Below are positions 7,627 through 42,615 of a stretch of 64,000 nucleotides of DNA, piece after piece; position 1 is the first letter of the stretch, and the number at the start of each line of letters is the position of its first letter. The stretch is from Planotetraspora mira. Lineage in GTDB: Bacteria; Actinomycetota; Actinomycetes; Streptosporangiales; Streptosporangiaceae. The notes beneath the pieces were generated by a model. It did no database searches and was not told where the DNA came from. It worked only from the letters and a program-made list of their open reading frames with translations. The stretch lies in the NCBI RefSeq assembly GCF_016863275.1, contig NZ_BOOO01000022.1, positions 62,001 to 126,000 of the forward strand, given 5' to 3'. Both the position numbers and the translations under genes were made by a program.

Positions 7627-7814
7627 GGGATCATGCACGGCCACTCACGGTAAGAATCCTCACAACGCCCCCCCGAACTTCCCGGGCGTGATCATGCACA
7701 GATTCGGTGACGGCACCGTTGACCTGCCACGATCCCGGTCGTGATCATGCGCAGGTTCGGAGAAAGCGGCCTCACCAGCGGAAACACCCAGCGTGATCAT
7801 GCAAACAGGCGCGG
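7627..7814 (+). repeat. 53-bp repeat array A (three cores plus one degenerate core)
   Basis: Cores reading rightward start at 7688, 7741 and 7793; a degenerate core, GGGATCATGCAC, lies at 7627. The intervals are 53 and 52 bases, and 61 from the degenerate copy. Units at 7688 and 7741 keep the second box at unit positions 33-39 (TGACCTG and the weaker TCACCAG). The array fills most of the space between the 3' end of the thioesterase gene and the 5' end of murI, both of which are on the opposite strand. The unit at 7688 is an open 18-codon frame ending at the TGA of the 7741 core; the 52-base step breaks that frame in the next unit. Confidence 0.9.
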
Positions 7815-7849
7815 AATCCGAACCGGCGCGGCCGGGCCGTACGGAAGGG

Positions 7850-8644
7850 TCAACCTCGTCCCACCCTCGCGAGCTGCCGAGATTGGGCCACCAGGCGACC
7901 CGCCGAGTCCCACACCTCGACGTCCTCGTCGAACCAGCCGTCGCTGATCAGCCTTCCGCTGCCCAGGAGGGTCAGCCATCCGGGGGCCGGCAGCGCACGC
8001 AGGTGCCACGTCAACTCCACCGTGGGCGCCCACCCCCGCGCTCCCGCCGAGAACACCACCGGCGGCAGTGCGTCGACGGCGAGCGCGAGCACGAACGGAT
8101 CGGGATCCTGCGTCTCCGCCATCCGGAAATAGGCCCGCGCCTCCGGCCTGCCGGTGGGCTCTCCGGCGAGCCATCCGATCGTCGGCGGATCGAATCGCAA
8201 CTCCATCTGCGCGTTCAGGTTCATGTTCGATTCGGGCTTGGGGTCCGGGAGTTTTGCACATTCGGACAAATCTGGCATAAGGCTCGCCGGCCCGTCCGTC
8301 CATTCCGGAGTGGCGGCCGGATCCAAGGTGGCCGTCGTCACCAGGGTCTCGATGAAGGACCGGCCGTCCTGCACCAGCGTCGCCCGGGTCATCGTGGCCG
8401 TCCTGCCCGACTTGAGCCGCTCGATCCTGACCGTGGCCGGTCCGGGCGTCACGGCCCGGAGGAATTGGGCGCTCGTGGACACCGGATGCGCGTGCGGCGA
8501 CTCGTCGACCACCGCCCGCAGGACGGTCGCCAGCAGGTAACCCCCGTTCAGGGGCCCGCCGATCGAATATCCGTCATCGAGACACACGTCATAGGTGGTG
8601 TCGTCGACCCTGATCGCCTGCGTCGCCTCGTCGAACTTGGTCAC
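7850..8644 (-). CDS. Acyl-CoA thioesterase family protein (double hot-dog)
   Basis: This 264-residue protein looks like the TesB-like or 4HBT_3 thioesterase family. GGPLNGGYLLATVLRA forms the first hot-dog helix region, followed by SAQFLRAVTPGPATVRIERLKSGRT, and a second hot-dog half ends with EDVEVWDSAGRLVAQSRQLARV. Such enzymes hydrolyse acyl-CoA thioesters, often of medium or branched chains, in the cytoplasm. It is transcribed away from the DUF3352 gene. In M. tuberculosis a rhomboid protease gene (Rv1337) occupies the space between cysM and murI; here this thioesterase, the DUF3352 gene and two repeat arrays lie there instead. Confidence 0.85.
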   Translation of the reverse strand: MTKFDEATQAIRVDDTTYDVCLDDGYSIGGPLNGGYLLATVLRAVVDESPHAHPVSTSAQFLRAVTPGPATVRIERLKSGRTATMTRATLVQDGRSFIETLVTTATLDPAATPEWTDGPASLMPDLSECAKLPDPKPESNMNLNAQMELRFDPPTIGWLAGEPTGRPEARAYFRMAETQDPDPFVLALAVDALPPVVFSAGARGWAPTVELTWHLRALPAPGWLTLLGSGRLISDGWFDEDVEVWDSAGRLVAQSRQLARVGRG

Positions 8645-8713
8645 AACGCTCCTCGCACGAAAGCCTCAACCGAACCTTGTTCTAGTGAGTACTTTAGCGG
8701 AGGTCCACGCCTT

Positions 8714-8729
8714 GTCACGGATATGTGAC
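8714..8729. promoter_or_regulatory. Candidate operator GTCAC-N6-GTGAC
   Basis: A perfect inverted repeat (GTCAC, six bases, GTGAC) lies in the 168-base AT-richer gap between the divergent thioesterase and DUF3352 genes. Its size and position suit a dimeric repressor or activator acting on one or both promoters. No regulator gene is adjacent, so the binding protein is unknown. Confidence 0.35.
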
Positions 8730-8812
8730 GCAATCAACTTTATGGCCAAGGTTTCTCCAATTTATTGGCACAATTGGTAGATCATCCGACAAATGCATAC
8801 GGGGCGTGAACT

Positions 8813-10420
8813 ATGTCTGCCGAAACTCCTCCGGGGGCTTCATTCCCGGAGAGTCCGGACCCTGATCGGACCATCGAACACCGGACACCACAGCTCGGTC
8901 GGGCTGCCGCGAACGACGCGCACACCCAGCAACTGCCGTACGGCCAGGCCGAGGAGCTCGGGTTCAATGCTCCCGACGGGACCGGAGGCGCACCGGCCAA
9001 GCGCGGCCGCGGCTGGCTGCTCGCAGCCATCTCCGCCATCGTCGTCGTCATCCTCGGTGGCGGCGGCGTATGGGCGTTCTCGCAGCTGAGCGGTGGGGGA
9101 ACACAGCCGCAGGAGGTGCTGCCCGGCAACGCCATCGCCTATGTGCGGCTGGACCTCGACCCGGCGGCCAACCAGAAGGTGGCCCTGCTGACCATCGCCA
9201 GGAAGTTCCCGGGGATCAAGGACTCCCTGAGCGACGACGATCCGCGCAAGGCCCTCTTCGAGGCCATCAAGGGCGACTCCCCCGACCTGTCGAAGGTCGA
9301 CTACGCCAAGGACGTCGAGCCCTGGCTCGGCGAGCGCGCGGGCCTGGCCGTACTGTCCGCCGGCGCCGGCAAGGAGCCCGACGTCGCGGCCGCCGTGCAG
9401 GTGAAGGACGAGGCCGCGGCACGAGAGGGCATCGCCAAACTCGGCGCCAAGGACGAGTTCGGGCTCGCGTTCCGCGACGGTTACGCGATCCTGGCCAAGA
9501 CGCAGGCGGCGGCCGACGGGTACGCCAAGGCGGCGCCGCTGTCACAGAACGCCCAGTTCAGCGATGACACCTCTGCCGTCGGAGAGCCCGGCGTGATGTC
9601 GTTCTGGATGGATCTCGGCAAGCTGGCCGACTTGTCGGGCGCCGCCACCACCGCAGGCCCGGCGGCGCTGGAATCGATCAAGGGCACGCGCTTCGCCGGA
9701 GCCCTCCGCTTCGACGGCGACTACGCCGAACTGACGGGGATCACCCGGGGCGGTCCCGGGAACGCCCTCAAGGGGCAGCCGATCAAGATCGCGGAGCTGC
9801 CGGCCTCGACCGTGGGCGCCGTGTCGATCTCCGGCCTCGGCGACGGGTTCGCGGCGCAGTGGCCCAAGATCCAGCAGGCGGCGGAGGCGAGCCCGGACGG
9901 CCAGATGGTCACGAAGAGCCTCGAGCAGTTCCAGCAGCTCTACGGCATCTCCGTTCCGGATGACATCGCAACCCTGCTCGGCAAGAGCCTCACGATCGCG
10001 CTCGACCAGGAGGGCCTCGACGCGCAGCAGCCGAACGTCGGAGCGGTCCTCACGACCGATCCGGTCAAGGCGCAGACGATCGTGACCAAGCTGGAGGGGA
10101 TCCTCGCCGGGTCCGGCGCCCCGCTACAGCTCGCCACGAAACCCGGCGACGGGCAACTGGTGGTGGCGAGCACGCAGACGTACGCGGACAAGCTGGGCAC
10201 GAAGGGGACGCTCGGCGAGAGCGAGTCCTTCAAGCTGGCCGTTCCGGACGCGGACGCGGCCAACTACGCCATGTACGTCGACCTCGACAAGCTCGAGCCG
10301 CTCTACCTCAGCGGCCTGAAGGGCGAGGAGAAGGCCAACGTCCAGGTGCTTCGCGCGATCGGGCTGAGCGGGAACTACACGGGCGGAACCAGCATTACCC
10401 TGCGGGTCCTGTTCAACTGA
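8813..10420 (+). CDS. DUF3352 domain-containing single-pass membrane protein
   Basis: The 535-residue product has a cytoplasmic, acidic, Pro/Thr-rich N terminus of about 62 residues and one predicted membrane helix (about 64-87, WLLAAISAIVVVILGGGGVWAF). A long extracytoplasmic DUF3352 region begins with LPGNAIAYVRLDLDPAANQKVALL. DUF3352 has no established biochemical role; proteins of this type are common in filamentous actinomycetes and are probably displayed outside the cell. The gene appears to be transcribed alone, with an 18-bp terminator hairpin just downstream. The ATG start has no competing upstream choice. Confidence 0.85.
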   Translation: MSAETPPGASFPESPDPDRTIEHRTPQLGRAAANDAHTQQLPYGQAEELGFNAPDGTGGAPAKRGRGWLLAAISAIVVVILGGGGVWAFSQLSGGGTQPQEVLPGNAIAYVRLDLDPAANQKVALLTIARKFPGIKDSLSDDDPRKALFEAIKGDSPDLSKVDYAKDVEPWLGERAGLAVLSAGAGKEPDVAAAVQVKDEAAAREGIAKLGAKDEFGLAFRDGYAILAKTQAAADGYAKAAPLSQNAQFSDDTSAVGEPGVMSFWMDLGKLADLSGAATTAGPAALESIKGTRFAGALRFDGDYAELTGITRGGPGNALKGQPIKIAELPASTVGAVSISGLGDGFAAQWPKIQQAAEASPDGQMVTKSLEQFQQLYGISVPDDIATLLGKSLTIALDQEGLDAQQPNVGAVLTTDPVKAQTIVTKLEGILAGSGAPLQLATKPGDGQLVVASTQTYADKLGTKGTLGESESFKLAVPDADAANYAMYVDLDKLEPLYLSGLKGEEKANVQVLRAIGLSGNYTGGTSITLRVLFN

Positions 10421-10456
10421 TCGTTCAGCTGACGTTTCAGCTGGCCCGGGAACGCC

Positions 10457-10495
10457 ACGACCCCGGCATGTGATCCGATCACATGCCGGGGTCGT
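10457..10495 (+). terminator. Strong terminator hairpin after the DUF3352 gene
   Basis: An 18-bp perfect stem (left arm 10457-10474, right arm 10478-10495) closes a 3-base CCG loop. It lies 37 bases after the DUF3352 stop and just before the left-pointing repeat array B, so it should end transcription between the convergent DUF3352 and cysM genes. No U tract follows, as is usual for GC-rich actinomycetes. Confidence 0.8.
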
Positions 10496-10512
10496 CCGCT
10501 TCCATGTGCCAC

Positions 10513-11864
<1,352 letters not shown>

Positions 11865-11941
11865 CGCGGCTCAGTCTCCTTGATCGGTGGTCGTCATGAT
11901 GTTGGACACCCACCTGATTGGAACATGGTCAGGCGGGGCGG

Positions 11942-11965
11942 GATTCCGTCCGGGACGGATTCTCA
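11942..11965 (-). promoter_or_regulatory. Possible attenuator hairpin between leader peptide and cysO
   Basis: On the minus strand, directly at the end of the leader peptide, the sequence TCCGTC-CCG-GACGGA forms a 6-bp stem. It could act with the leader peptide to tune cysO-cysM expression according to cysteine supply. The stem is short and no alternative pairing was proven by hand, so this is tentative. Confidence 0.3.
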
Positions 11966-12061
11966 GCGACAGTCGTAGACGACGACGGAGGGGGTGTGCG
12001 CGAAAAGGAACCTCTGCAGGGCAACGCGGGACGACACGGTACGGATGTCGTCGCGAGGCAT
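11963..12061 (-). CDS. Cys-containing leader peptide upstream of cysO-cysM
   Basis: A 32-codon frame starts with ATG at 12061, 9 bases after the stop of the Mec gene, and ends at 11963-11965. The peptide begins MPRDDIRTVSSRVALQRFLF and ends VVVYDCR, with its single cysteine as the penultimate residue. I recall closely similar short peptides, annotated as putative leader peptides, before sulfur-metabolism genes of other actinomycetes. In mycobacteria, cysteine-rich leader ORFs act as cysteine-responsive attenuators. The 100-base gap between its stop and cysO is longer than needed for operon genes and fits a regulatory leader. Function is inferred from position and composition. Confidence 0.7.
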   Translation of the reverse strand: MPRDDIRTVSSRVALQRFLFAHTPSVVVYDCR

Positions 12062-12070
12062 GCGGCAAGT

Positions 12071-12484
12071 CTAGCCGTAGGCCTCGACGATCTTGACGTC
12101 CTCCTCGGTCACGACGCCGTCGACGATCCGGTAGGAGCGGAACTGCGGCTCGTCGTAGGCCGTGGAGACCAGGACGTAGTGCGTGTCCGGCTCGGAGGCG
12201 TAGCTGATGTCCGTACGCGAGGGGTAGGCCTCGGTCGCGGTGTGCGAATGGTAGATCACCACCGGCACCTCGTCGCGGTCGTCCATGTCGCGCCAGACGC
12301 GGAACTGCTCGTGGGAGTCGAACCGGTAGAACGTCGGGGAACGCTCGGCGTTGTCCATCTGGATGAACCGCTCGGGGCGGTCGGACCCCTCAGGCCCGGC
12401 CACGACGCCGCAGGCCTCGTCCGGATGGTCCGCACGCGCGTGAGCCACGATGGCGTCGACAAGCTCACGGGAAATCGTCAGCAT
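12071..12484 (-). CDS. mec: Mec metalloprotease (M67/JAMM family), CysO-cysteine hydrolase
   Basis: The 137-residue protein has the full JAMM zinc signature: Glu23 in PDEACG, then His79, His81, Ser89 and Asp92 in HSHTATEAYPSRTD. From established work on the M. tuberculosis homologue (Rv1334), it cuts CysO-cysteine to release free cysteine and regenerate CysO. Because CysO here ends with two residues after the diglycine, Mec may also trim the CysO precursor. It lies 9 bases after the DUF2017 gene and precedes the leader peptide and cysO in the conserved cluster. Confidence 0.95.
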   Translation of the reverse strand: MLTISRELVDAIVAHARADHPDEACGVVAGPEGSDRPERFIQMDNAERSPTFYRFDSHEQFRVWRDMDDRDEVPVVIYHSHTATEAYPSRTDISYASEPDTHYVLVSTAYDEPQFRSYRIVDGVVTEEDVKIVEAYG

Positions 12485-12493
12485 GCGGGAAAG

Positions 12494-13018
12494 CTACCAA
12501 AGGGCCCGGACAAGGGTGTCCTGCAGGTAGGTCAGCCAGTCGTAGGTCACGAACGCCGGATAACGCGGATCGTCCTCGGACATGCTCGCGATCTCCTCGT
12601 GGACCTCCTCCGTCACCTCCAGCCGGATGCCGAGCGCGAGCCGTACGTCGTTGATCGCGCGCAACCAGGCCAGGGCCTGCTCAGCGGTGAGCTGCACCTT
12701 CCCGGGCTCGACCGTCTCCAGCAACGTCGTGGCGTCGGCCCGCTTCCCGTCGCGCAGCGTCGCCTCGGTGTAGCGGCGGAACTCGCCCGCCGCCTTGTCG
12801 TCGTCCGCGTACGCCGCGGGGAACAGCCGGGCCAGCACCGGATCCGACGGCGCCTCGGGCGACCCGATGCCCAGAGCCCGTTCGAGGGGGTCGTCGCCCG
12901 TCGCGCCGGGCTCCACGAGATCGAGGACCTGGGACACCAGGGAGACGAGGAGCGAGACCTCACCGGCGTCGAGCTTGACGGACACGCCCTTGCCCGATGA
13001 CTTGAAACCCGTGCTCAT
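12494..13018 (-). CDS. DUF2017 protein, AosR-like
   Basis: This 174-residue protein matches DUF2017 (KLDAGEVSLLVSLVSQVLDLV near the start, LGIRLEVTEEVHEEI near the end). Its place between clpS and mec matches Rv1332 (AosR) of M. tuberculosis. AosR is reported as an actinomycete-specific redox-responsive regulator that, with SigH, controls the mec-cysO-cysM cluster. The copy here contains no cysteine at all, so a disulfide-based switch within this protein is impossible. I place the start at the ATG at 13018 (MSTGFKSSGKG), which matches family length. A small Gly/Ala-rich extension from 13039 is possible. Confidence 0.85.
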   Translation of the reverse strand: MSTGFKSSGKGVSVKLDAGEVSLLVSLVSQVLDLVEPGATGDDPLERALGIGSPEAPSDPVLARLFPAAYADDDKAAGEFRRYTEATLRDGKRADATTLLETVEPGKVQLTAEQALAWLRAINDVRLALGIRLEVTEEVHEEIASMSEDDPRYPAFVTYDWLTYLQDTLVRALW

Positions 13019-13102
13019 CGGCCCGGCCCCCGCTCGCATGAACGCTCACATGAACGCCCGCACCGATGCCCGCTCGGATGCCCGCCCGACACGCCGCCCA
13101 CG

Positions 13103-13405
13103 TCAGGAGTCCCGCTGGACGGTGGCCCACAGGCCGTAGGAATGCAGAATCTGGACGTCGCGCTCCATCTCCTCGCGCGCGCCGCTGGCGACGACGGCCC
13201 TGCCCTTGTGGTGAACGTCCATCATCAGCTTCTCCGCCTTCTCCCGCGGATAGCCGAACACCGCTTGGAAGACATATGTGACGTACGACATTAAATTCAC
13301 CGGGTCGTTCCAGACGATCGTCAGCCAAGGCAAGTCTGGCCGCACGTCCGTCGACGGACGCTCGACCTCGGCCGGAGCGGTACTACCCACAGGACCATCC
13401 TGCAC
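13103..13405 (-). CDS. clpS: ATP-dependent Clp protease adaptor ClpS
   Basis: ClpS delivers N-degron substrates to ClpA/ClpC-ClpP. The core [24 protein letters not shown], read in two parts, and [17 protein letters not shown] are characteristic. The protein ends [13 protein letters not shown]. The exact start is uncertain: GTG codons at 13408, 13405 and 13390 are all possible. I give 13405 as a compromise that yields 100 residues, close to the family norm. It is divergent from pncB with fewer than 40 bases between likely starts, the same arrangement as Rv1331 and pncB1 in M. tuberculosis. Confidence 0.9.
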
Positions 13406-13441
13406 CACGCCGGTCGTAGTCTTCGACACGTGCGCACGACC

Positions 13442-16207: not shown

Positions 16208-16241
16208 AGGGGACGCAGCAGGAACGTGGAAAGAAGTGGCG

Positions 16242-27371: not shown

Positions 27372-28751
27372 ATGACGTGGGACGTGAAGGAGTTCGCCGA
27401 GGCCGCAGAGGTGACGGTGGACGAGTTGGCCGCCTACGTGGACCAGAGCCAGCGGGGCGCGGCACCGGTTCTGCGCCGCCGGCCTCCGCGTGCGCTGGCG
27501 GACAAGCTGGAGCTGGCCCGGTGGATCCGCGATGGAGGCATGACGCCCGAGGACTACCGGCGGTTCCTCGGCGACTATCTCCGCGAGGGCACCCGGCTGC
27601 ACCACCCCGCCTACCTCGGCCACCAGAGCGCCGTTCCCGACTTTCCCGCGGCGCTCGCCGACTTCGTCCACGGCGCGACCAACAATCCGATGGCGATCTA
27701 CGAGATGGGCGCCTCGGCCGCGACGGTCGAGTTCGAGGTGCTGCGCTGGATGCTCGCCAAGGTCGGTTTCCGCGACGGCGGCGGCGTGCTGACGCACGGG
27801 GGCTCCCTGGCCAACCTGACCGCGATGCTCGCCGCGCGGGCGGCCGTGGCGCCGGATGCCTGGGCCGACGGCGTCCCGGCGGACCTCGTCCTGCTGGCAC
27901 CGCCGTCCGCGCACTACTCGATCACCCGGGCCGCCGCGATCCTCGGCCTGGGCGAGCGGGCCGTCGTTCCGCTGGAGGTGGACGGCCTCGGCCGGATCGA
28001 CGTCACCCGCCTGCCCGCCGTACTGGAACAGGTGCGCCGGTCGGGGCGACGGCCGATGGCCCTGGTGGCCGGAGCGTGCGCCACCGGCACCGGCCTGTAC
28101 GACGATCTCCGGGCGATCGGGGAGTTCTGCGCGGAGAACGACATCTGGTATCACGTGGACGGCGCACACGGGGCCTCAGCCCTGCTCAGCGACGGCCACC
28201 GGCATCTGCTCGACGGCGTCGAACTGGCCGACTCGGTCATCTGGGACGCCCACAAGATGTTGCGGACCTCGAGCCTCGCCGCCGCGGTGCTCGTGCGCCG
28301 GGAGCCCGACCTGGACGCGGCCTTCCAGCAGCAGGCGAGTTACCTCTTCTACGGCGACCAGGGATTCGACCTGGTCGGCAGAGCCGTCGAGTGCACCAAG
28401 GCCGAGCTCGGGCTGAAGATCTTCCTCAACCTCGCATGGCGGGGCGAGCGGGGCATGGGCGAATACGTGGCGCGGCAGTACGAGACGGCCCACAGGTTCT
28501 GGGAACTGGCCGGGAACCGGCCCGGTTTCGTCTTCCCCTACGAGCCGGAGAGCAACATCGTCTGCTTCCGGTACGGCACAGCCGACCAGGCGGCCATCCG
28601 CGAACGGCTGATGGCCGACGGCACCTTCCACCTGACCTCAGCCGAGATCGGCGGTGTCCGCCACCTCCGGGTGACCGTGATGGCCCCGGCAACCGACGAC
28701 CAAACCCTGGAGTCCCTCCTCGACCACATCACCACCCTCTTTCCCGCGTGA
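27372..28751 (+). CDS. PLP-dependent group II amino acid decarboxylase
   Basis: The protein of about 459 residues has the group II decarboxylase pattern: GVLTHGGSLANLTAMLAAR, then WYHVDGAHGASALLSD with the PLP-contacting Asp, and WDAHKMLRTSS, whose Lys should bind PLP. Members act on glutamate, diaminobutyrate, tyrosine or other amino acids; the substrate cannot be read from the sequence. The ATG at 27372 is preferred because GGAG lies 6 bases upstream; ATG at 27360 is possible. The divergent Lrp-type gene probably regulates it. Its TGA stop is embedded in the first core of the 53-bp repeat array C. Confidence 0.9.
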   Translation: MTWDVKEFAEAAEVTVDELAAYVDQSQRGAAPVLRRRPPRALADKLELARWIRDGGMTPEDYRRFLGDYLREGTRLHHPAYLGHQSAVPDFPAALADFVHGATNNPMAIYEMGASAATVEFEVLRWMLAKVGFRDGGGVLTHGGSLANLTAMLAARAAVAPDAWADGVPADLVLLAPPSAHYSITRAAAILGLGERAVVPLEVDGLGRIDVTRLPAVLEQVRRSGRRPMALVAGACATGTGLYDDLRAIGEFCAENDIWYHVDGAHGASALLSDGHRHLLDGVELADSVIWDAHKMLRTSSLAAAVLVRREPDLDAAFQQQASYLFYGDQGFDLVGRAVECTKAELGLKIFLNLAWRGERGMGEYVARQYETAHRFWELAGNRPGFVFPYEPESNIVCFRYGTADQAAIRERLMADGTFHLTSAEIGGVRHLRVTVMAPATDDQTLESLLDHITTLFPA

Positions 28752-29206
28752 TCATGCACACATTCGGCGGCATGCCGTACGAGCTGGGCGAACTCCGCCC
28801 GTGATCATGCACAAATTCGTGTTCATGACGCTCGAGCTGGGCGAATCCAATTCGTGATCATGCACAGATTCGGTCGCACGCCACCTGACCTCGCAAGACT
28901 TCCACCGTGATCATGCACAGGTTCGCAGACATGTCGCCCGACCTCGAGAAACCCCTCCCGTGATCATGCACTGGACTCCGCCGTGCATGATCACGGGAAG
29001 GAAAACAGCAGGTCGGACGGCCGACCACAGAATCTGCGCATGATCACGAACTGGAAAGCGGCAGGTCGGCCATGCGATCGACGAATCCCTGCATGATCAC
29101 GGGCAGTAATCGCGCTGGTCAGCGGTCATTTCCAAGAACCTGTGCATGATCACGGGCAAGGTGGCCGCTGGTCGGCGGCCACCTTTCCGAACCTGTGCAT
29201 GATCAC
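28748..29206. repeat. 53-bp repeat array C: five rightward and five leftward units meeting head-on
   Basis: Rightward cores start at 28748, 28801, 28854, 28907 and 28960. Leftward cores start (minus strand) at 29206, 29153, 29100, 29047 and 28994. Every same-strand interval is exactly 53 bases. The array fills the whole 465-base gap between the convergent decarboxylase and mutase genes; nothing else is seen there. The second box occurs as CGAGCTG (twice), TGACCTC, CGACCTC, CGACCTG, TGACCAG or CGACCAG. The innermost cores pair as a 15-bp stem (28957-28971 with 28983-28997) around an 11-base loop. In the unit at 29206 the second box is also the centre of an 11-bp hairpin. Confidence 0.95.
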
Positions 29207-29216: not shown

Positions 29217-30899
29217 TTAGAAACGGGCGGGTTCTGAGTAGGTGCCCCATTCGGCGCGGAGGGCGTCGCAGATCTCCCCCAGGGTCGCCTCGGCCCGGGC
29301 TGCGTCGAGCATGGGCGGGATCATGTTGTCGCTCGTCCTCGAAGCGGCCGTGAGCGCCGCCAGAGCCGCGTCGACGGCCGCCTGGTCCCGGGCGCCGCGG
29401 CGTTCCGCGAGAACGCGCCGCTGTTCGACCTCGACCTCATGGCTGATCCGGAGGATCTCCAGGGGCTCCTCGACCGACGCGGTGTGGCAGTTCACCCCGA
29501 CGATCCGCTTGTCCCCCTTCTCCAGCTTCCGCTGGTAGTCGAAGGCCGCCTCGGCGATCTCCGACATGAACCAGCCGTCCTCGATGCCTCGGAGGATCCC
29601 GGACGTCATCGTCCCGTCAGACCCCATATCCCGAATTTTCGTGAAGATGGCTTCGGCCTCGGCCTCCAGCCTGTCGGTCAGCTCCTCGACGTACCAGGAG
29701 CCGCCCAGAGGATCGACGACGTTGACGACCTCGGTCTCCTCCATGATGACCTGCTGCGTCCGCAGGGCGATCTCCGCGGCCTTCTGGGACGGCAGCGCGA
29801 GCACCTCGTCCAGCGCGTTGGTGTGCAGGGAGTTGGTCCCGCCGAGCACCGCCGCCAGCGCCTCCACCGCCGTGCGGACGATGTTGTTGTCGGGCTGCTG
29901 CGCGGTCAGCGAGACGCCTGCGGTCTGGGTATGGAAGCGCAGCCACTGGGCCTTCTCGGTCCGCGCGCCGTACACGTCCCGCATCCACCGGGCCCAGATC
30001 CGCCGGGCGGCCCTGAACTTGGCGATCTCCTCGAAGAAGTCGATGTGCGCGTCGAAGAAGAACGACAGCCCCGGAGCGAAGGCGTCGACGTCGAGCCCGC
30101 GCGACAGTCCGAGCTCGACGTAGCCGAACCCGTCCGCGAGGGTGAAGGCCAGCTCCTGCGCCGCCGTGGATCCGGCCTCCCGGATGTGGTAGCCGGAGAC
30201 CGACAGCGGCTTGTACGCGGGGATCTCGGCGGCGCAGAACTCCATGAGATCGCCGATCAGCCGCAGATGGGGCTCGGGGGAGAACAGCCACTCCTTCTGC
30301 GCGATGTACTCCTTGAAGATGTCCGTCTGGAGGGTTCCGTTCAGCTTGCCCGTCGGCACGCCCTGCCTCTCGGCCGCGACGACGTACATGCAGAAGATCG
30401 GTACGGCCGGCCCGCTGATGGTCATCGAGGTGGTGACGTCACCGAGCGGGATGCCGTCGAACAGCTGGTCCATGTCCAGCGCCGAGTCGATGGCGACACC
30501 GCAGTGCCCCACCTCCCCGAGGGAGTGCGAGTCGTCGGAGTCGCGGCCCATCAGCGTCGGCATGTCGAACGCGACGGACAGGCCTCCTCCTCCCGCGCCG
30601 AGGATCATCTTGTAGCGCTCGTTGGTCTGCTGGGCGTTGCCGAACCCGGCGAACTGCCGGATCGTCCAGGGCCGCCCCCGGTAGCCCGTCGGATGGAGGC
30701 CCCGGGTGAACGGGAACTCGCCGGGCCAGCCGATGCGCGCGAATCGCGGATCGCTGGAGGTGGGCCCGTAAACGGGGTCGACCTCCAGGCCGGAAAGGGT
30801 CCGGAACTCCCCTGCCCGCTTGAAGGCGGCGTCGTACCGTGCCTGCCAGCGGGCCCGGCCGGCCTCGGTGTCGGCGTCGCGCGCGTGCTTCGGGTCCAT
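29217..30899 (-). CDS. icmA: Isobutyryl-CoA mutase-type acyl-CoA mutase large subunit
   Basis: The 560-residue TIM-barrel subunit lacks the C-terminal B12-binding domain, so a separate small subunit (not in this window) must carry adenosylcobalamin. Two substrate-pocket positions favour isobutyryl/n-butyryl-CoA over methylmalonyl-CoA. RQFAGFG has Phe where methylmalonyl-CoA mutase has Tyr89, and EYIAQKEW has Gln where it has Arg207. These are the reported F/Q signature of IcmA and IcmF. The start MDPKHARD at 30899 follows GGAGG. A perfect 18-bp palindrome lies 32 bases upstream. MeaB (36525) and the adenosyltransferase (48765) could support its cofactor. Confidence 0.85.
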   Translation of the reverse strand: MDPKHARDADTEAGRARWQARYDAAFKRAGEFRTLSGLEVDPVYGPTSSDPRFARIGWPGEFPFTRGLHPTGYRGRPWTIRQFAGFGNAQQTNERYKMILGAGGGGLSVAFDMPTLMGRDSDDSHSLGEVGHCGVAIDSALDMDQLFDGIPLGDVTTSMTISGPAVPIFCMYVVAAERQGVPTGKLNGTLQTDIFKEYIAQKEWLFSPEPHLRLIGDLMEFCAAEIPAYKPLSVSGYHIREAGSTAAQELAFTLADGFGYVELGLSRGLDVDAFAPGLSFFFDAHIDFFEEIAKFRAARRIWARWMRDVYGARTEKAQWLRFHTQTAGVSLTAQQPDNNIVRTAVEALAAVLGGTNSLHTNALDEVLALPSQKAAEIALRTQQVIMEETEVVNVVDPLGGSWYVEELTDRLEAEAEAIFTKIRDMGSDGTMTSGILRGIEDGWFMSEIAEAAFDYQRKLEKGDKRIVGVNCHTASVEEPLEILRISHEVEVEQRRVLAERRGARDQAAVDAALAALTAASRTSDNMIPPMLDAARAEATLGEICDALRAEWGTYSEPARF

Positions 30900-30931
30900 A
30901 CGGCCTCCAAAGTGTCGGATCCCAAAGAAAA

Positions 30932-30949
30932 TACTAGGACGTCCTAGTA
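30932..30949. promoter_or_regulatory. 18-bp palindromic operator upstream of icmA
   Basis: TACTAGGACGTCCTAGTA is a perfect palindrome 32 bases before the start codon of the mutase gene, in an AT-rich stretch that should contain its promoter. The size and symmetry fit a TetR- or MerR-type repressor site. No regulator gene is adjacent. Confidence 0.6.
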
Positions 30950-31111
30950 CCATCCCCAACACCCAGCCGCCCATTACGGAATGTGACCTGACCATTCCCC
31001 TTCGCATGCCGTCATGTCACACGTTGGTCGCAAATTGCCACGGATCTTTGACAAACAGATGAAATCTTCAACCATGGCTAGGGCCCTCTCAAAGTCCACA
31101 CGGAGGTGGAT

Positions 31112-35638: not shown

Positions 35639-35724
35639 GCCGGCCAGGTCAACCGGTTCCCCGGCGGCCTCGGCGGCGATGGCGTGGATGTGAGATCGGG
35701 CGAATAAGGGGAAGATGTCCTCCC

Positions 35725-36414: not shown

Positions 36415-36419
36415 CCCGC

Positions 36420-36447
36420 GGAGCCCGCGATCATGCTCGCGGGCTCC
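36420..36447 (+). terminator. Terminator hairpin after the DUF4230 gene
   Basis: GGAGCCCGCGA and TCGCGGGCTCC form an 11-bp perfect stem with the loop TCATGC, starting 6 bases after the stop codon. The loop and adjoining bases share GATCATGC with the core of the 53-bp repeats, which may be coincidence. Confidence 0.8.
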
Positions 36448-36476
36448 CCCGCCCGCCGGGACCATTCACGGGCGGC

Positions 36477-36511
36477 CCCTGTACGGCGAGGCTCGCGAGA
36501 GCCGTACAGGG
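36477..36511 (-). terminator. Terminator hairpin after meaB
   Basis: CCCTGTACGGC (36477-36487) pairs perfectly with GCCGTACAGGG (36501-36511) around a 13-base loop, 13 bases beyond the meaB stop on the minus strand. Confidence 0.75.
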
Positions 36512-36524
36512 AGCCTGAGGGCGG

Positions 36525-37484
36525 TCAGCCGAGGGCGGCGATGAGGTCGTCCGCGGCCGAGTAGGGATCGACGGCGCCCGCGAGCAGGCGCTCGGCGAGC
36601 CCCTCGAGCCGATCCACGTGCGGATCGGCGAGCCTGGACCTGATCTGCGCGAGCGCGATCGCCTCGATCTCGTCCCTGGCGCGGGCCAGCCGCCGGCGAC
36701 GGAACTCGCCCGACTCCTCCAAGTGGGCGGCGTGCTTGTCGAGGGCGTCGAGCAACTCCTCGGCGCCCTCGCCCTTCGCCGCCACCGTGGGGACGATCGG
36801 GGGCCGCCACGGCGTGGTCGCGAGCGCCACCATGTTGCGCAGGTCGCGCACGGTCGCCTGGAGGCCGTCGCGGTCGGCCTTGTTGACGACGAACACGTCG
36901 GCGATCTCGAGGATCCCCGCCTTCGCCGCCTGGATGCCGTCGCCCATCCCCGGAGCCAGCAGCACGAGCGTCGTGTCGGCCAGCCGGGCGACGTCGACCT
37001 CGGCCTGGCCGACCCCCACGGTCTCGATGAGGATGACGTCGCAGCCGGCCGCGTCGAGGACGCGCAGCGCCTGCGGCGTGGCCCACGCGAGCCCGCCCAG
37101 GTGACCCCGGCTGGCCATGCTGCGGATGAAGACGTCGGGGTCGGTCGCGTGGTCCTGCATCCGCACGCGGTCGCCGAGCAGCGCGCCGCCGGTGAACGGG
37201 CTCGAGGGGTCTACGGCGAGGACGCCCACCCGGCTGCCGCGGGCGCGGAAGGCCCGGATGAGCATGCCCGTCGTCGTGGACTTCCCGACGCCGGGCGCGC
37301 CCGTCAGGCCGATCACCCTCGCGGTGTACGGCTTGCGTGTCCCCGTCGCGAGCTCGGCCATGACCTCGCGGAGCGTCGCGGCGCGCTCGGGGGCGGCCAC
37401 GGCGTTCTCGACCAGGGAGAGCAGGCGGGCGACCGCGCGCGGCCGGCCGCGTCGCGCGTCGGCGGCGAGCTCGCGGACGTCCAC
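36525..37484 (-). CDS. meaB: Methylmalonyl-CoA mutase-associated GTPase MeaB
   Basis: MeaB is a G3E-family GTPase chaperone that gates delivery and repair of adenosylcobalamin in acyl-CoA mutases. The 319-residue protein has Walker A GLTGAPGVGKSTT (Lys68), the switch segment ETVGVGQAEVDVA, NKAD for guanine recognition and VAVDPSSPFTGGALLGDRVRM read in two parts. The GTG at 37484 lies 2 bases after the thiolase stop. The pair thiolase-meaB next to mce matches SCO5398-SCO5400 of Streptomyces. Confidence 0.94.
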   Translation of the reverse strand: MDVRELAADARRGRPRAVARLLSLVENAVAAPERAATLREVMAELATGTRKPYTARVIGLTGAPGVGKSTTTGMLIRAFRARGSRVGVLAVDPSSPFTGGALLGDRVRMQDHATDPDVFIRSMASRGHLGGLAWATPQALRVLDAAGCDVILIETVGVGQAEVDVARLADTTLVLLAPGMGDGIQAAKAGILEIADVFVVNKADRDGLQATVRDLRNMVALATTPWRPPIVPTVAAKGEGAEELLDALDKHAAHLEESGEFRRRRLARARDEIEAIALAQIRSRLADPHVDRLEGLAERLLAGAVDPYSAADDLIAALG

Positions 37485-37486
37485 GT

Positions 37487-38686
37487 TCAGCTTCCGTCGC
37501 GACCGGAGGGAACGCGGATGATCAGGGCGTCGCCCTGGCCGCCGCCGCCGCACAGACCGGCCGCGCCCAGCCCGCCGCCACGCCGCCTGAGCTCGTGCGC
37601 GAGGGCCAGCACGATGCGCGCCCCGGACGCGCCGATCGGATGGCCGAGGGCGATGCCGCCGCCGTTGACGTTGACCTTGTCGAGCGGGATGTCCAGCTCC
37701 TTCGCCGACTGGAGCACGACCTGGGCGAACGCCTCGTTGATCTCGACCAGGTCGAGATCGCCCGTCGTCACCCCCTGCTTGCCGAGGGCCTGCTTGATGG
37801 CGTTGGCGGGCTGGGACTGCAGCGAATTGTCCGGTCCGGCCACGTTCCCGTGCGCGCCGATCTCGGCCAGCCAGTCGAGACCCAGTTCCTCGGCCTTGGC
37901 CCGGGACATGACCACCACGGCCACGGCGCCGTCGGAGATCTGGGAGGCGGAGCCCGCGGTGATCGTGCCGTCCTTCGTGAACGCGGGGCGCAGACGGGCG
38001 AGGCCCTCCACGGTGGTGTCGGGGCGGATGCCCTCGTCCGCCGAGAACAGGATCGGCTCTCCCTTGCGCTGCGGCAGGGAGACGGGGACGATCTCGTCGT
38101 CGAACAGGCCGTTCTTGGTCGCCTGCGCGGCGAGCTGATGCGACCGGGCGGAGAACTCGTCCTGCTCCTGCCGGGTCAGGCCGAGCCGCGCGTTGTGGTG
38201 CTCGGTCGACTCACCCATCGCCACCTGGTCGAACGCGTCGGTCAGCCCGTCGAGCGCCATCGAGTCGAGCACGCCGGCGTTGCCGTACTTGACGCCCTTG
38301 CGCAGGCCTGGCAGCAGGTGAGGCGCGTTGGTCATCGACTCCATGCCGCCCGCGACGACGATGTCGAACTCCCCCGCCCTGATGAGCTGGTCGGCCAGGG
38401 CGATGGCGTCGAGGCCCGACAGGCACACCTTGTTGATGGTGAGCGAGGGGACCGTCATGGGTATGCCCGCCTTCACGGCGGCCTGCCGTGACGGAATCTG
38501 ACCGGCCCCGGCCTGGAGAACCTGCCCCATGATCACGTATTGCACCTGGTCGGGAGCCACGCCCGCACGCGACAGGGCCGCCTCGATGGCGAGGCCGCCG
38601 AGGTCGACGGCGGAAAGGTCGGCGAGCGAGCCCAGGAGCCTTCCGATGGGCGTGCGAGCTCCGGCGACGATGACGGAACCAGACAT
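37487..38686 (-). CDS. Acetyl-CoA C-acetyltransferase (thiolase)
   Basis: The 399-residue thiolase has the nucleophile Cys88 in [12 protein letters not shown], the [15 protein letters not shown] segment, NEAFAQVVL, the His in [15 protein letters not shown] and the second catalytic Cys in [11 protein letters not shown]. It condenses or cleaves acetyl-CoA units. The start at 38686 (MSGSVIVAG) follows GGAGG at 8 bases. It is the counterpart of fadA4 (Rv1323) and SCO5399. It is divergent from mce and almost overlaps meaB. Confidence 0.94.
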
Positions 38687-38795
38687 TTGAGGGGCCTCCA
38701 TCACGAGATCAGGGCGACGGTGCCACCATACCCAGCAGGCGCCGGACGACCGCGAGAGCGGCCGCCGTTGAACGACACACGAAACGGAGTCCCAA

Positions 38796-39218
38796 ATGTT
38801 GCTCAGGATCGATCATGTGGGAATCGCCTGCCACAATCTGAGCGAGAAGATCGAATTCTACGAGTCGGTGTTCGGCCTGACCGTCGTGAGCCGGGAGATC
38901 AACGAGGAGCAGGGCGTTCGCGAGGCCATGCTGCACGTGGCGGACGGCGATCAGGGCGCTTCCTATGTGCAGTTGCTGGAGCCGCTCCACCCCGACACGG
39001 CGGTGGGCAAGTTCCTGGCCAAGCGCGGCGAGGGTGTGCACCATGTCGGATACGGAGTGACGGACATCACCAAAGCGCTGGCGGAAATCTCCGCGAAAGG
39101 CGTTCGTTTGCTCGATGAAAGACCGCGGCACGGATCGATGGGCGCCTCCATCGCCTTTCTCCATCCGAAAGACATCGGAGGGGTGCTCACCGAACTGGTG
39201 GAGACATCCAGACACTGA
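38796..39218 (+). CDS. mce: Methylmalonyl-CoA epimerase
   Basis: The 140-residue VOC-fold enzyme interconverts (S)- and (R)-methylmalonyl-CoA. It has the metal-binding repeats IDHVGIAC at the start and GVHHVGYGV in the middle, with YVQLLEPL and [15 protein letters not shown] near the end. Its position beside thiolase and meaB is conserved (Rv1322A, SCO5398). The mutase matching it in function is not in this window, as the mutase at 29217 looks isobutyryl-specific. Confidence 0.95.
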
Positions 39219-39294
39219 TCCAAACGCAAGAAACGTTCATACGTAACAAGTAGCGCAGAAAGTCGGAGAGGGCCGCCAAGGCAGCGGTAGCGGA

Positions 39295-39308
39295 GTACGC
39301 TGGCGTAC
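39295..39308. promoter_or_regulatory. Palindrome GTACGCTGGCGTAC upstream of the Scy-like gene
   Basis: A 14-base palindrome lies 94 bases upstream of the Scy-like gene, within its presumed promoter region. Flanking GG and CC extend the symmetry. It may be an operator or part of the promoter. Confidence 0.35.
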
Positions 39309-39401
39309 CACCGGAGGTGGATGCCCGTGGGCTCCCCGCCTCGGATGTCCGAACCCCCCGTCCGGCCCGTGTAGCCGTCTCGACAACCAGGATCGAGCCT
39401 C

Positions 39402-40697
39402 ATGCAGTCCGACATCGACGCCCAGCTCAATAATTTCTTCGAAGACGCCCCTTCTCGGGAATTCGACGTGGTGCTCAGGGGCTATGACCGGCACCAGGTC
39501 CACGACCACTTGAAGACGCTCGACACCGAGCTGCGTCAGGCCAAGGAGCAGGTGACAGGTCTGCAGCGCGACCTGTCCGACTCGCAGCGACAGTTGCAGG
39601 AGCAGGAGCGCCCGACCTATTCCGGTCTGGGCGCCCGCATCGAGCAGTTGCTGCGCCTGGCGGAAGAGCAGGCCACCGAGCTCGTACAGGCGGCCAGGTC
39701 CGAGGCGAACGAGATCAAGGCAGCGGCACGGGTGGACGCAGCCGACCTGCGCGCCGCCGCGGAGAACGAGGCCGCCGAGAAGCGCGCCCTCGCCAACCGC
39801 GAGGCCGAGGACATGCGGAGCACCGCCGAGCGTGACGCCGAGGAGATCCGCTCCACCGCGAAGCGTGAGTCCGACGAGCTGACCTCCACCACCGAGCGCG
39901 AGGTCGCCAAGCTGCGCGCCACCGCCGACCACGAGGTCGCGGAGAAGCGCGCCGACGCCGAGCGTGAGATCGCCAAGCTGCGCACCACGACCGAGCGCGA
40001 GGTCGCCCAGCTCCGCGCGTCCACCAAGCGTGAGCGCGACGAGGTGCTGACCACGGCCAAGCGCCAGGCGGACGAGATGCGTGCGCAGGCTCAGCGCGTC
40101 CTGGAGGAGTCCGAGGCCAAGCGGGCCCAGGACGAGGCCGAGTTCGAGATCCAGCTCGCCGCCCGCCGCGAAGACGCCGAGCGGCAGGAGGCCGAGCGGC
40201 ACGCCACCGCGCAGGCCAACACGCAGAAGCTGGTCGCCGAGGCCGAGCAGCGGGCCGCGACCGCCGAGCAGCGGGCCACCAAGGCCACGCAGCAGGCCGA
40301 CCAGACCCGTCGCGAGGCGGACACGCACGCCAAGCAGTTGCTCGCGAACGCCCGCAAGAACGCCGACCAGGTCGTGGCCGAGGCGAAGTCGAGCTCCGAG
40401 TCGATCGTGAGCGACGCCAAGAGCGAGGCGGAGCGGACCCGCACCTCGATGCAGCGGCAGGTCGACGAGCTCACGCGCCAGCGCGACAGCATCACCAGCC
40501 ACCTCGCCCAGCTGCGTCAGCTGCTCGGCGGCGCGGCGCTGCCGGGCATGGAGCCCGAGCCCGCCCCGGTCACCGCGGCTCCGCCGAAGCCGGCCCTGTC
40601 GGCCGCGCCCCCGGTGAGCGAGAAGCCGGTCGTGGCGGCCAAGCCGGTCGAGCCCGCCCCCAAGGCGGACGACGACGCCGAATGGTGGCAGGAGTAA
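39402..40697 (+). CDS. Scy/FilP-like coiled-coil polarity protein with DivIVA-like N terminus
   Basis: The 431-residue protein begins with a DivIVA-like segment (EFDVVLRGYDRHQVHDHLKTL). An almost unbroken coiled coil follows from about residue 45 to 370, with internal repeats of the type TEREVAKLRATADHEVAEKR, and then a Pro/Ala/Lys tail. In Streptomyces, Scy and FilP sit next to mce at SCO5396-SCO5398 and organise polar growth and the cytoskeleton of hyphae. Here one gene of intermediate length occupies that place. A 17-bp terminator hairpin follows at 40735. The role in apical growth is inferred from synteny and architecture. Confidence 0.85.
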   Translation: MQSDIDAQLNNFFEDAPSREFDVVLRGYDRHQVHDHLKTLDTELRQAKEQVTGLQRDLSDSQRQLQEQERPTYSGLGARIEQLLRLAEEQATELVQAARSEANEIKAAARVDAADLRAAAENEAAEKRALANREAEDMRSTAERDAEEIRSTAKRESDELTSTTEREVAKLRATADHEVAEKRADAEREIAKLRTTTEREVAQLRASTKRERDEVLTTAKRQADEMRAQAQRVLEESEAKRAQDEAEFEIQLAARREDAERQEAERHATAQANTQKLVAEAEQRAATAEQRATKATQQADQTRREADTHAKQLLANARKNADQVVAEAKSSSESIVSDAKSEAERTRTSMQRQVDELTRQRDSITSHLAQLRQLLGGAALPGMEPEPAPVTAAPPKPALSAAPPVSEKPVVAAKPVEPAPKADDDAEWWQE

Positions 40698-40734
40698 CGG
40701 TCGGCGCATTCGGGGAGTTGGCGACGGCTATCTG

Positions 40735-40772
40735 AACAGGGCCCGGTGGGAACGATCCCGCCGGGCCCTGTT
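40735..40772. terminator. Bidirectional terminator hairpin
   Basis: A 17-bp stem (one G-U pair) with a 4-base ACGA loop separates the convergent Scy-like and alpha/beta hydrolase genes. Left arm 40735-40751, right arm 40756-40772. Confidence 0.85.
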
Positions 40773-40786
40773 CGTTCGCGCGCGTC

Positions 40787-41557
40787 TCAGCGGAGGGACC
40801 GGACGAACTCCGCGACGACGGCGTTGAAGGCCTCAGGCTGTTCGATCGCGGACAGGTGCCCGGCCTTCTCGATGACCGCCAGCTTCGCCTCCGGCACGGC
40901 CTGAGCCATCGCCTCGGCGTCGGAGGGCGGGGACAACTCGTCCTCGTCGCCCACGACGACCAGGACCGGCACGTCCAGGGCCCGCAACGTCTCGAAGGAG
41001 TCGGGCCGCCCGGCCATCGCCCGCTGGGCCCAGGCCACCGCTCCAGGCGGGGCCGCCTGCACCAGGCCGCGGACCCGCCCGACGACCATCCCCCGGCGCT
41101 GTTTGGTGGTCGTGCCGATCAGCGTGGGCAGGACGTCCTCCAGCAGCACTCCCGCGCCGCCGTTGAGCACCGCCGCGGCGATCCGCTCCCGGTTGGCCCG
41201 CGCCGCCTCCGTGTCCGCGCTCGCCTTGGTGTCGGCGAATATCGCGCCCATCAGGCGGTCCGGATGACGGCGGCACAGCGCCATCGTCACATAGCCGCCC
41301 ATCGACAGGCCGCCGACCACCGCCCGGTCGACGCCTTCGTCGTCGAGCAGCCGTGCCACGTCGTCGGCCATCGCGTCGACGGAAGGGTCCTCCTCGCCCA
41401 GCCGGGAGCCGCCGAAGCCGCGCAGATCCGGAGTGATCACTCTGCATTCGGATGCCAGAGCCTCACGCTGCGCGAGCCACATCGCCGATGAGAGCGGGAA
41501 GGCATGGAGCAGCACGAGGGGCATGCCACTTCCTGCCGATCGCGAGTAAAGCTGCAT
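40787..41557 (-). CDS. Alpha/beta hydrolase
   Basis: The 256-residue protein has the alpha/beta-hydrolase core: LVLLHAFPLSSAMW (oxyanion loop), nucleophile elbow GGLSMGGYV with the catalytic Ser, VVVGDEDELSPP with the acid, and KAGHLSAIEQP with the His. The substrate is unknown; relatives include 3-oxoadipate enol-lactonase-like and other esterases. The ATG at 41557 (MQLYSRSAG) is chosen for family length. The TACGTT hexamer 6 bases upstream hints at a leaderless promoter. Confidence 0.85.
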   Translation of the reverse strand: MQLYSRSAGSGMPLVLLHAFPLSSAMWLAQREALASECRVITPDLRGFGGSRLGEEDPSVDAMADDVARLLDDEGVDRAVVGGLSMGGYVTMALCRRHPDRLMGAIFADTKASADTEAARANRERIAAAVLNGGAGVLLEDVLPTLIGTTTKQRRGMVVGRVRGLVQAAPPGAVAWAQRAMAGRPDSFETLRALDVPVLVVVGDEDELSPPSDAEAMAQAVPEAKLAVIEKAGHLSAIEQPEAFNAVVAEFVRSLR

Positions 41558-41665
41558 CACGTCAACGTAACGCGCGATCGGCCGCTTGCCACCCTCCCCG
41601 CACCGAATCGCCCTCAACGCGCTCAGAGGCCGACGCTCAGAGGACGGCAGTCCGAGCGGGGCGGG

Positions 41666-42370
41666 TCAGACGGCGGTGGGCAGCGGAGCAGCCGACGGGT
41701 TGACCCGCTTGACGATCTCGTTCAACACGATCCGCACGTACGGCTCGCCCACCCACAGGTGCTTGGCCCCCTCGACCCCGACGACCTCGGCCTGGGGGAC
41801 ACGGCTGAAACGACGCGTGGCCTCCTCCGGCTGGAGGTAGTCGTCGAACTCCGGTACGAGGGCGATCAGGGGACGGTCGAACTCCGCCCAGGCGTCGAGA
41901 TCGGCGTCGGTGGCCCGGTGGAGCGGGGGCGACAACAGGATGGCGCCTTGGACGAGGGGATCCCTCCCCCACTTCAGGGCCAACTCGGTGCCGAACGACC
42001 AGCCGACCAGCCAGGGACGCGGCAGGTCGTGGAAGTCCGCGTACTCGAGCGCAGCGGCCACGTCGTACCGCTCTCCCTCTCCCCCGTCGAACGCCCCCTG
42101 CGACGTGCCGCGGTCGGAGGTCGTCCCACGGGTGTTGAAGCGCAACACGGCGAGGTCGGCGAGAGCCGGCAGCCGATAGGACGCCTTGCGCAGGACATGG
42201 CTGTCCATCATGCCGCCGTGCGTGGGAAGCGGGTGCAGGCATATCAGGGTGGCGGCGGGCGACCCGCTCTCCGGCAGCGCGAGCTCTCCCACCAGGGTCA
42301 GGCCGTCGGCCGTGTTCAGCTCGATGTCCTCCCGCTTGGCGGGCAGGACCGTCGACGCCCTGATGTCCAT
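41666..42370 (-). CDS. Alpha/beta hydrolase (dienelactone hydrolase-like)
   Basis: This 234-residue hydrolase shows ICLHPLPTHGGMMDSHV, then FNTRGTTSDRGTSQGAF, a nucleophile elbow GWSFGTELAL and EGAKHLWVGEP with the likely catalytic His. It resembles the small family typified by YpfH/CocE-like or DLH-like serine hydrolases. The start at MDIRASTV (42370) is supported by length; a longer frame to 42430 would run into repeat array D. Nothing nearby identifies its substrate. Confidence 0.8.
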   Translation of the reverse strand: MDIRASTVLPAKREDIELNTADGLTLVGELALPESGSPAATLICLHPLPTHGGMMDSHVLRKASYRLPALADLAVLRFNTRGTTSDRGTSQGAFDGGEGERYDVAAALEYADFHDLPRPWLVGWSFGTELALKWGRDPLVQGAILLSPPLHRATDADLDAWAEFDRPLIALVPEFDDYLQPEEATRRFSRVPQAEVVGVEGAKHLWVGEPYVRIVLNEIVKRVNPSAAPLPTAV

Positions 42371-42391
42371 CCCGACCCCAGCCCCTCCATC

Positions 42392-42615
42392 GTGATCATG
42401 CACAAGTTCTCCCACAGTATCCCTGACCATCCAATTCTCCCGCCGTGATCATGCGCAGGTTCGGCACCATCCCCCATGACCAGCACACCCTTCCCGCGTG
42501 ATCATGCACAGATTCGCCGCCGCCCCGCGCGACCAGGCCATACACCGTTCGTGATCATGCACAGGTTCGGACACAGCCCCGCCGACCAGGGCATCCGCCG
42601 TACGTGATCATGCAA
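42392..42615 (+). repeat. 53-bp repeat array D (five rightward cores)
   Basis: Cores start at 42392, 42445, 42498, 42551 and 42604, all exactly 53 bases apart. The second box is TGACCAT, TGACCAG, CGACCAG and CGACCAG in the four full units. The array fills the gap between the 5' end of the alpha/beta hydrolase gene and the 3' end of the small zinc-ligand gene, both on the opposite strand. The fifth core is truncated after GTGATCATGCA. The four full units are each open for 18 codons and closed by the TGA of the next core. Confidence 0.93.

Follow-up and report, generated by a model that had tools for sequence, protein, structure and literature searches.

Phased repeat arrays in the window

Five short arrays of a 53-bp phased repeat lie at gene junctions of a 64,000-nucleotide stretch of Planotetraspora mira DNA (contig NZ_BOOO01000022.1; hereafter the window, meaning the whole stretch that was analysed). 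An array can be read as one to four 53-bp units followed by a closing 10-bp head. The exact head, GTGATCATGC, occurs 21 times in the window against 0.13 expected, a count reached by none of 100 shuffles. The preliminary description of this DNA had counted 21 copies of a 20-bp core and had measured 15 of 16 same-strand intervals at 53 bp and the other at 52 bp; our recount bears out both figures, the 21 copies being the exact heads. With up to three mismatches the 20-bp core itself matches 16 times (0.02 expected), and the five remaining copies are heads at array ends, degenerate at positions 11-20. Two boundaries had to be redrawn. The four arrays first recognised are five, since the stretch 28748-29206 is made of two facing arrays (3a and 3b in Table 1), and array 1 starts at 7688 and not at 7627, where an out-of-phase half copy (GGGATCATGCACGG, 7627-7640) stands 61 bp ahead of it.

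The first heads of arrays 2 and 3a contain the TGA stops of a gene that we take to be cysM-like and of a decarboxylase gene, respectively, and array 3b lies 10 bp beyond the stop of a methylmalonyl-CoA mutase gene, presumably mutA, which served as a synteny anchor. Arrays 1 and 5 are each flanked by two minus-strand genes and run antisense to both; their orthologous junctions also carry arrays in G001-G004 of the window's genus, for which five genomes (G000-G004) were compared. Opposite the cysM-like gene, the gene encoding a DUF3352 protein is followed by a hairpin whose stem is altered on both sides between G000 and G003; it includes GTGATC though it is not an array unit. Elsewhere in the window, the palindrome GCGTGATCACGC (737-748) occupies a convergent junction that has no array and where about 9 bp separate the two gene ends. 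An Rfam search of the window at gathering scores returned no match.

Table 1. Arrays and neighbouring features, in window coordinates
Feature	Position	Strand	Description
Array 1	7688..7802	+	heads at 7688, 7741 and 7793; spacings 53 and 52 bp
Hairpin 3' of the opposing DUF3352 gene	10459..10493	+	perfect stem GACCCCGGCATGTGATC/GATCACATGCCGGGGTC
Array 2	10515..10630	-	3 heads, first bases 10630, 10577 and 10524
Flanking gene, pyridoxal-phosphate-dependent enzyme	10627..11574	-	PF00291
Array 3a	28748..28969	+	5 heads at 53 bp
Centre of the 3a/3b facing pair	28957..28997	.	perfect 15-bp inverted repeat made by the two terminal heads, loop 11 nt
Array 3b	28985..29206	-	5 heads at 53 bp, faces 3a
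Flanking gene, methylmalonyl-CoA mutase	29217..31007	-	PF01642
Array 5	42392..42613	+	5 heads at 53 bp

Anatomy and abundance of the unit

Further arrays, which the preliminary description expected if the element is functional, are plentiful. The 9.03-Mb genome (100 contigs) holds 736 core matches at up to three mismatches, against one for the reversed pattern, and 622 exact GTGATCATGC-N43-GTGATCATGC pairs. Exact phased pairs occur in all five genomes of the genus, in numbers from 118 to 666. The lowest count belongs to G002 (521-666 in the other congeners), where the array at the cysM junction has moreover collapsed to a single head, so that its array system looks as if decaying.

The unit has the consensus GTGATCATGCACAGgTTCGG...CtGACCTGCgC..AC.C....C. 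The 108 exact-head units of G000 give GTGATCATGCACAGgTTCGGnganangcCcnCtGACCTGCgCnnACnCcnnnC, and the profile is similar in G003, in G002 and, save for positions 11-15, in G001. A second box, YGACCWG, had been placed at unit positions 33-39 in nearly all units of the window. The position stands and the frequency does not: of 16 full units, 9 have the exact box and six have it with one base changed, and in the remaining one, the 52-bp unit, it is shifted by one base. Likewise the remaining bases mostly vary freely, as had been stated, except at positions 45-46, 48 and 53, which are informative in four genomes; positions 27-29 carry weaker information, hardly any of it in G002.

The length of the unit is nearly invariant, with 77 of 79 units in the window and contig C1 measuring 53 bp and two 52 bp when the next head was sought at 51-55 bp. 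Over the wider range of 36-105 bp, 115 of 117 intervals between exact heads (window, G000:C1 and G003:C1) are 53 bp and two are 52 bp; the few extra head spacings are of 21, 30, 31 and 35 bp, below that range, and of 106 bp. A head step of 21 bp, or two helical turns, precedes a normal 53-bp array at G000:C1:22285-22346 (L032), and the same step is present in G004. Fifty-three base pairs divided by 10.5 make 5.05 helical turns, and phasing by a near-integer number of turns is a property of DNA. The information content over the whole unit has no peak at a 10.6-bp period.

Among 43 arrays, 16 have four heads, 14 have five, 11 have three and 2 have two. The closing head keeps its exact 10 bp in 41 of the 43, so that nearly every unit has a head on both sides, and its positions 11-20 are decayed, with a mean of 5.4 mismatches to the core. 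Mean core mismatches climb from 0.98 in the first unit to 1.57 in the fourth.

Placement relative to genes

Gene positions were taken from our own codon-usage caller, and the counts of arrays and junctions combine the window with G000:C1 and G003:C1, sets that are orthologous in part and hence not independent. Arrays sit at gene ends and avoid divergent junctions: they occupy 13 of 127 convergent, 17 of 509 tandem and none of 125 divergent junctions (convergent against divergent, Fisher p 1.8e-4). By orientation, 21 of the 43 arrays lie at convergent junctions, 11 in sense after a co-directional gene and 11 antisense to both neighbours. Thirty-two therefore run in sense behind a gene, whose TGA falls within the first head in seven cases. 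All 12 close pairs (up to 600 bp apart) face each other and none stands back to back; the head-to-head distance is 34 in four of the 12.

Two simpler rules of orientation were discarded. A strict sense orientation fell to the antisense arrays once genes had been called, and an alternation of orientations along the contig, apparent in C1, was not upheld by the single arrays listed for G001. Outside the arrays GTGATC is not a general word of 3' ends, with 0.99 per kb at convergent and 0.96 per kb at divergent junctions.

Conservation and selection within the genus

The conservation of arrays at orthologous gaps, which had been proposed as a check, is complete in the comparison made. Over 292 orthologous adjacent gene pairs of G000:C1 and G003:C1, arrays are found in both genomes at 11, in one only at 0 and in neither at 281, two of the 13 array junctions per genome falling outside the comparison. 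The four array junctions of the window also bear arrays in G004, G003 and G001, and three of them do in G002.

In the arrays aligned between G000 and G003, heads are 99% identical, the box 79% and the spacers 58-59%. Since arrays were found by their heads, the first value is biased upward, and we rely on positions 17-19 (TCG, 95-100% identical) and on the spacing. The spacer identity (0.58), which non-orthologous units aligned between arrays of unequal unit number may have lowered, is below that of array-free convergent gaps (0.70). By comparison, the 119 orthologous gaps that lack arrays have one indel event per 79.7 aligned bases, and those at convergent junctions 3.3 per 100 bp. Nor do different loci have spacers in common: 3 of 2882 pairs reach an identity of 0.7, one of the three inside a single junction. 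Because orthologous arrays keep motif and spacing while spacers are not common to different loci, motif and phase are kept by selection and not by recent copying. As read from these alignments, both are under purifying selection within the genus, in line with the earlier suggestion of a protein-binding element maintained by selection on its spacing.

In facing pairs of the window, G000:C1 and G003:C1, the outermost unit of one arm often resembles that of the other, with values of up to 0.95 at free positions, which suggests conversion between arms.

Lineage-specific cores and distribution

The core is spelled differently from lineage to lineage. In G001 all 31 units (taken from the first 30 places listed) have G at position 12, where C stands in 101 of 108 units of G000, 44 of 48 of G003 and 28 of 30 of G002; the hexamer AGAAST is present in 25 of the 31 G001 units. 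These switched-core arrays occupy the same four window junctions. At the mutA junction of G001 (L198), a short tandem repeat around GCATCACGCCCAAGGGTTTT adjoins the array.

A phase-only pattern, which requires three in-phase GTGATC and misses other heads and shorter arrays, was run on 341 genomes of the family. At least four matches were found in 13 genomes belonging to four of 68 genera, and none with the reversed control. The five genomes of the window's genus have 62-460 matches, G111 has 248, five of 15 genomes of Microbispora's genus have 4-108, and G248 and G249 have 14 and 87. Fourteen further family genomes have one or two matches; in the 11 that were inspected, over the first 80 letters of each match, none resembles the 53-bp frame. 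A class-wide sample of 246 genomes added only two single matches beyond the family, which resemble direct repeats in the letters shown.

The core is close to GTGATCATGCRCRNRTTCC in G111, in Microbispora the first unit of either arm carries a separate core, GTGATCTTGTAGTTTGTCGCA, and G248 and G249 have cores such as GTGATCTTGCGAATTCTCGCA, all with the box at an unchanged position. Many heads in Microbispora and in G248/G249 read GTGATCTTG, keeping only the GATC of the palindrome TGATCA. The 53-bp spacing, whose loss elsewhere would speak against a phased element according to the preliminary description, holds in the arrays examined within the genus and is looser outside it. Among 29 intervals of 51-63 bp in G111, 19 are of 53 bp, seven of 52 bp and one each of 51, 55 and 63 bp; G126 has three of 53 bp and one each of 52, 54 and 55 bp. 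From the respelled cores we infer a DNA-binding specificity at positions 11-16 that would have diverged between lineages, the sites following.

A possible transcription boundary

The units are probably sites on DNA rather than elements of RNA. We propose, as a tentative reading that stays short of probable, that the phased rows are sites for a lineage-specific DNA-binding protein and form a boundary to transcription. The predicted protein, or complex, would contact the head GTGATCWTG, positions 11-19 and the YGACCTGC box. Neighbouring protomers would then sit on the same face of the DNA, five helical turns from each other, and could bind cooperatively, and the bound row would act as a roadblock terminator or an insulator, halting both read-through and antisense transcription. 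Among possible roles a boundary appears the most likely because arrays stand near stops and between transcription units, keep off divergent promoters and face inward. Termination in bacteria is taught as depending either on a hairpin or on Rho. If the proposal is true, the arrays would be a third mode beside these two, with parts short enough for plasmid tests.

Several observations weigh against such a boundary. Arrays are found on only about one tenth of convergent junctions, and a roadblock would have to work from either side to serve the arrays that are antisense to both neighbours. The codon score of array-flanked genes does not differ from that of others (p 0.19). The spacing in G111 is loose, and whole pairs have dispersed there, as set out below. 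Head-to-head windows of 63 nt are more stably folded than their dinucleotide shuffles (median z -1.68, 18 of 44 below -2). Just past the stops, a raw difference in fold energy at array genes (p 2e-8) accompanies a lower G+C content; with composition controlled, array genes have a median z of -0.73 against -0.33 for the others (p 0.50). As the energy difference vanishes under dinucleotide shuffles, a replacement of hairpin terminators by arrays is not supported. The cysM junction is neutral on this point: the opposing gene is followed by a hairpin alone in G000, and by hairpin and array together in G001. No binding protein was found, the protein families of array-bearing and array-less genomes not having been compared. 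Finally, placement alone is no proof of a role in termination, because repetitive extragenic palindromic sequences (REPs) are placed likewise according to passages of PMC3733652.

Alternative readings

A role in chromosome architecture, with arrays as places where a nucleoid-associated or condensin-like protein would load or anchor, intergenic because least harmful there, is unlikely in our estimate. It would agree with phased DNA sites under selection, with the fact that arrays at tandem junctions may run with or against the genes, and with a spacing of array junctions (mean 28.5 and 30.5 kb, coefficient of variation 0.63 and 0.73) that is somewhat evener than random. Anchoring, however, needs neither a placement that tracks gene ends nor the exclusion of divergent junctions. 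Such a placement suits a transcription boundary at least as well as the nucleoid-organising element of the preliminary description. The spacing is also uneven in places, the first exact pair listed on contig C7 of G001 standing near 280 kb, and arrays are recognisable in so few genera of the family. Even if the arrays were architectural, motif and spacing kept amid drifting spacers, with a core respelled at the examined sites of one congener, would document a DNA-binding specificity changing along with its sites.

Just as unlikely, in our judgement, is a miniature mobile element, in which the facing pair would be a non-autonomous transposon with several transposase sites in each of its inverted ends, the outermost site acting as terminal repeat, and single arrays would be solo ends. 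In G111 one facing pair matches at least 40 loci, the query included (40 of 325 candidates were scored), at least 30 of them with at least 80% identity over at least 200 bp and with different flanks. Outermost heads of 20 copies span 261-263 bp in nine, 208-210 bp in four, 315 bp in two and other lengths in five, the second and third classes being one unit less and one unit more than the first. Agreement with the copies' consensus is 0.95 in heads and 0.84 in the rest. These data argue that an entire facing pair is able to disperse, whether through transposition or ectopic conversion, and the G111 copies could be used to study how such a repeat comes to be fixed and acquires a function. Next to the arrays, three G111 loci (L332, L329 and L326) have a second small repeat, close to GGTTRCCTGACCGGCTCYCTAG, which in L332 recurs in tandem every 34 bp.

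Three of the window's array junctions were compared with those of other genera (the 42.4-kb junction was not comparable). Only cysM carries arrays in another genus, with arrays in G111 and G126 and none found in G248 and G249. The 7.6-kb junction has no array in G111, G126 or G248. The mutA site is empty in G126 and in Microbispora rosea, where the stop codons overlap; the latter is the nearest named mutA relative at 91%, records very close to the window's genome being perhaps excluded. G111 in turn has arrays at further junctions where the window's genus has none. As array junctions differ between genera, arrays have been gained and lost between them. Within the pairs, too, an element with defined ends would account for the likeness of outermost units (0.55 over 13 pairs, against 0.36 over 93 pairs of unequal position) and for the special first unit of Microbispora on both arms.

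Against a mobile element stands the genus itself, where no junction is discordant, spacers are not common to different loci, and motif and spacing persist that a dead insertion would lose. No target-site duplication is apparent by eye in the flanks of the 20 G111 copies, which are old (80-87% identity to the query). Stretches between distant facing arrays were considered as cargo and rejected: 8 of 11 contain genes, these look ordinary, and none was transposase-like by eye, no family search having been made. Plasmids and phages (by BLAST) and viral contigs (by exact pattern) gave no array match. The transcription boundary and the mobile pair can also be joined in one account, possible if rather doubtful as a whole, in which a protein-dependent boundary made of helically phased 53-bp operator rows, set at gene borders along the chromosome and with a word co-evolving with its protein into lineage dialects, would have spread earlier as a mobile facing pair and then been put to service.

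The preliminary description also considered an RNA element acting in series, by which transcribed units would fold, or bind an RNA-binding protein, at mRNA 3' ends; this has become less likely, and we hold it quite improbable. The sense position of most arrays agrees with it, and core and box form a near inverted repeat (CAGGTTCGG / CCGACCTG). In 77 units, however, the paired fractions of the core-box stem equal the independent expectation at 12 of 13 proposed pairs, the exception being the outer pair 21-31 (0.53 paired, 0.41 expected). The strongest column couplings are between neighbouring columns, and the stem region, taken by itself, folds no differently from shuffles (median z -0.19). A core-box hairpin is rejected, as pair counts and mutual information show no covariation. 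The folding of head-to-head windows remains in its favour: it drops to a median z of -0.19 (3 of 44 below -2) when windows are shifted by 27 nt and to -0.61 (10 of 44) on the opposite strand, and successive heads closing a helix through TGATCA would explain the closing head. The better folding is caused by this palindrome, which is present in every head and could equally be a half-site on DNA; only its GATC is left in many heads of Microbispora and G248/G249. Moreover, tandem junctions carry 22 arrays, of which 11 are antisense to both flanking genes, a freedom of 52 to 54 nt would be cheap for RNA, and in G001 the left arm has changed while the right arm has not.

A self-marking word read by a DNA-import or exclusion system, after the manner of DNA uptake sequences (DUS), is very improbable: hundreds of copies, inverted pairs at gene ends and dialects differing in a few adjacent bases would fit, but an uptake receptor would not need several phased 53-bp units, and array positions are conserved in the genus.

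Comparison with known repeat systems

Among repeats of the same phylum, the mycobacterial interspersed repetitive units (MIRUs) come close in unit length and gene-end position: they are about 53 bp long and stand at gene ends, some overlapping a stop codon. MIRUs are oriented with the flanking genes and have near-identical units. The arrays described here differ in their partly antisense orientation, in spacers mostly unrelated between units and in holding 2-5 heads.

The ends of Tn7, Tn402 and IS21 contain several transposase sites. The arrays share with them inverted rows of direct sites, the best copy outermost, and dispersed copies in G111; they differ in being selected in place, unmoved within the genus, often single-armed and free of any transposase seen by eye. 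Dispersed similar copies with common ends, as in miniature inverted-repeat transposable elements, are likewise seen in G111 and not in the window's genus. Protein roadblock terminators of the Reb1/TTF-I type, of which the examples compared are eukaryotic, offer a likeness in rows of sites past gene ends that would stop the polymerase, bound here by a putative protein. Clustered regularly interspaced short palindromic repeats (CRISPR) have identical repeats and unique spacers at few loci; the arrays described here differ in their hundreds of core matches, in a conserved box and further informative positions inside the 'spacer', and in repeats that are not identical.

No description of such 53-bp phased arrays was found among the open-licence PubMed Central (PMC) matches listed, and the main text of the RepRanger paper (PMC12306157) mentions neither Microbispora nor Streptosporangiaceae. 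REPs and bacterial interspersed mosaic elements (BIMEs) are described in PMC3733652 and PMC2817692 as intergenic, often paired and of high copy number, and as possibly acting in termination, in supercoiling and on the stability of mRNA; in other bacteria, REPs lie mainly between convergent and co-directional genes (PMC3733652). The arrays resemble REP/BIME (GTAG and CGTC superfamilies, with RAYT transposases) in copy number, pairing and intergenic placement, and are likewise rarer at divergent junctions. They differ in build, a 20-40-bp palindrome with a tag there and a 53-bp two-box unit in direct phased rows here. Neither the GTAG nor the CGTC tag is conserved in the unit consensus, core and box do not covary, and the palindrome of the head is only 6 bp long.

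With the DUS of Neisseriaceae, which passages of PMC3630211 present as genome-wide words with species dialects and inverted pairs at terminators, the arrays have in common a lineage-specific word, hundreds of copies and inverted pairs. The DUS is a single short word without phased rows, and phased rows are what is found here. We place the arrays among the interspersed intergenic repeats, as a new form that agrees in part with several of the known kinds compared and in full with none of them.

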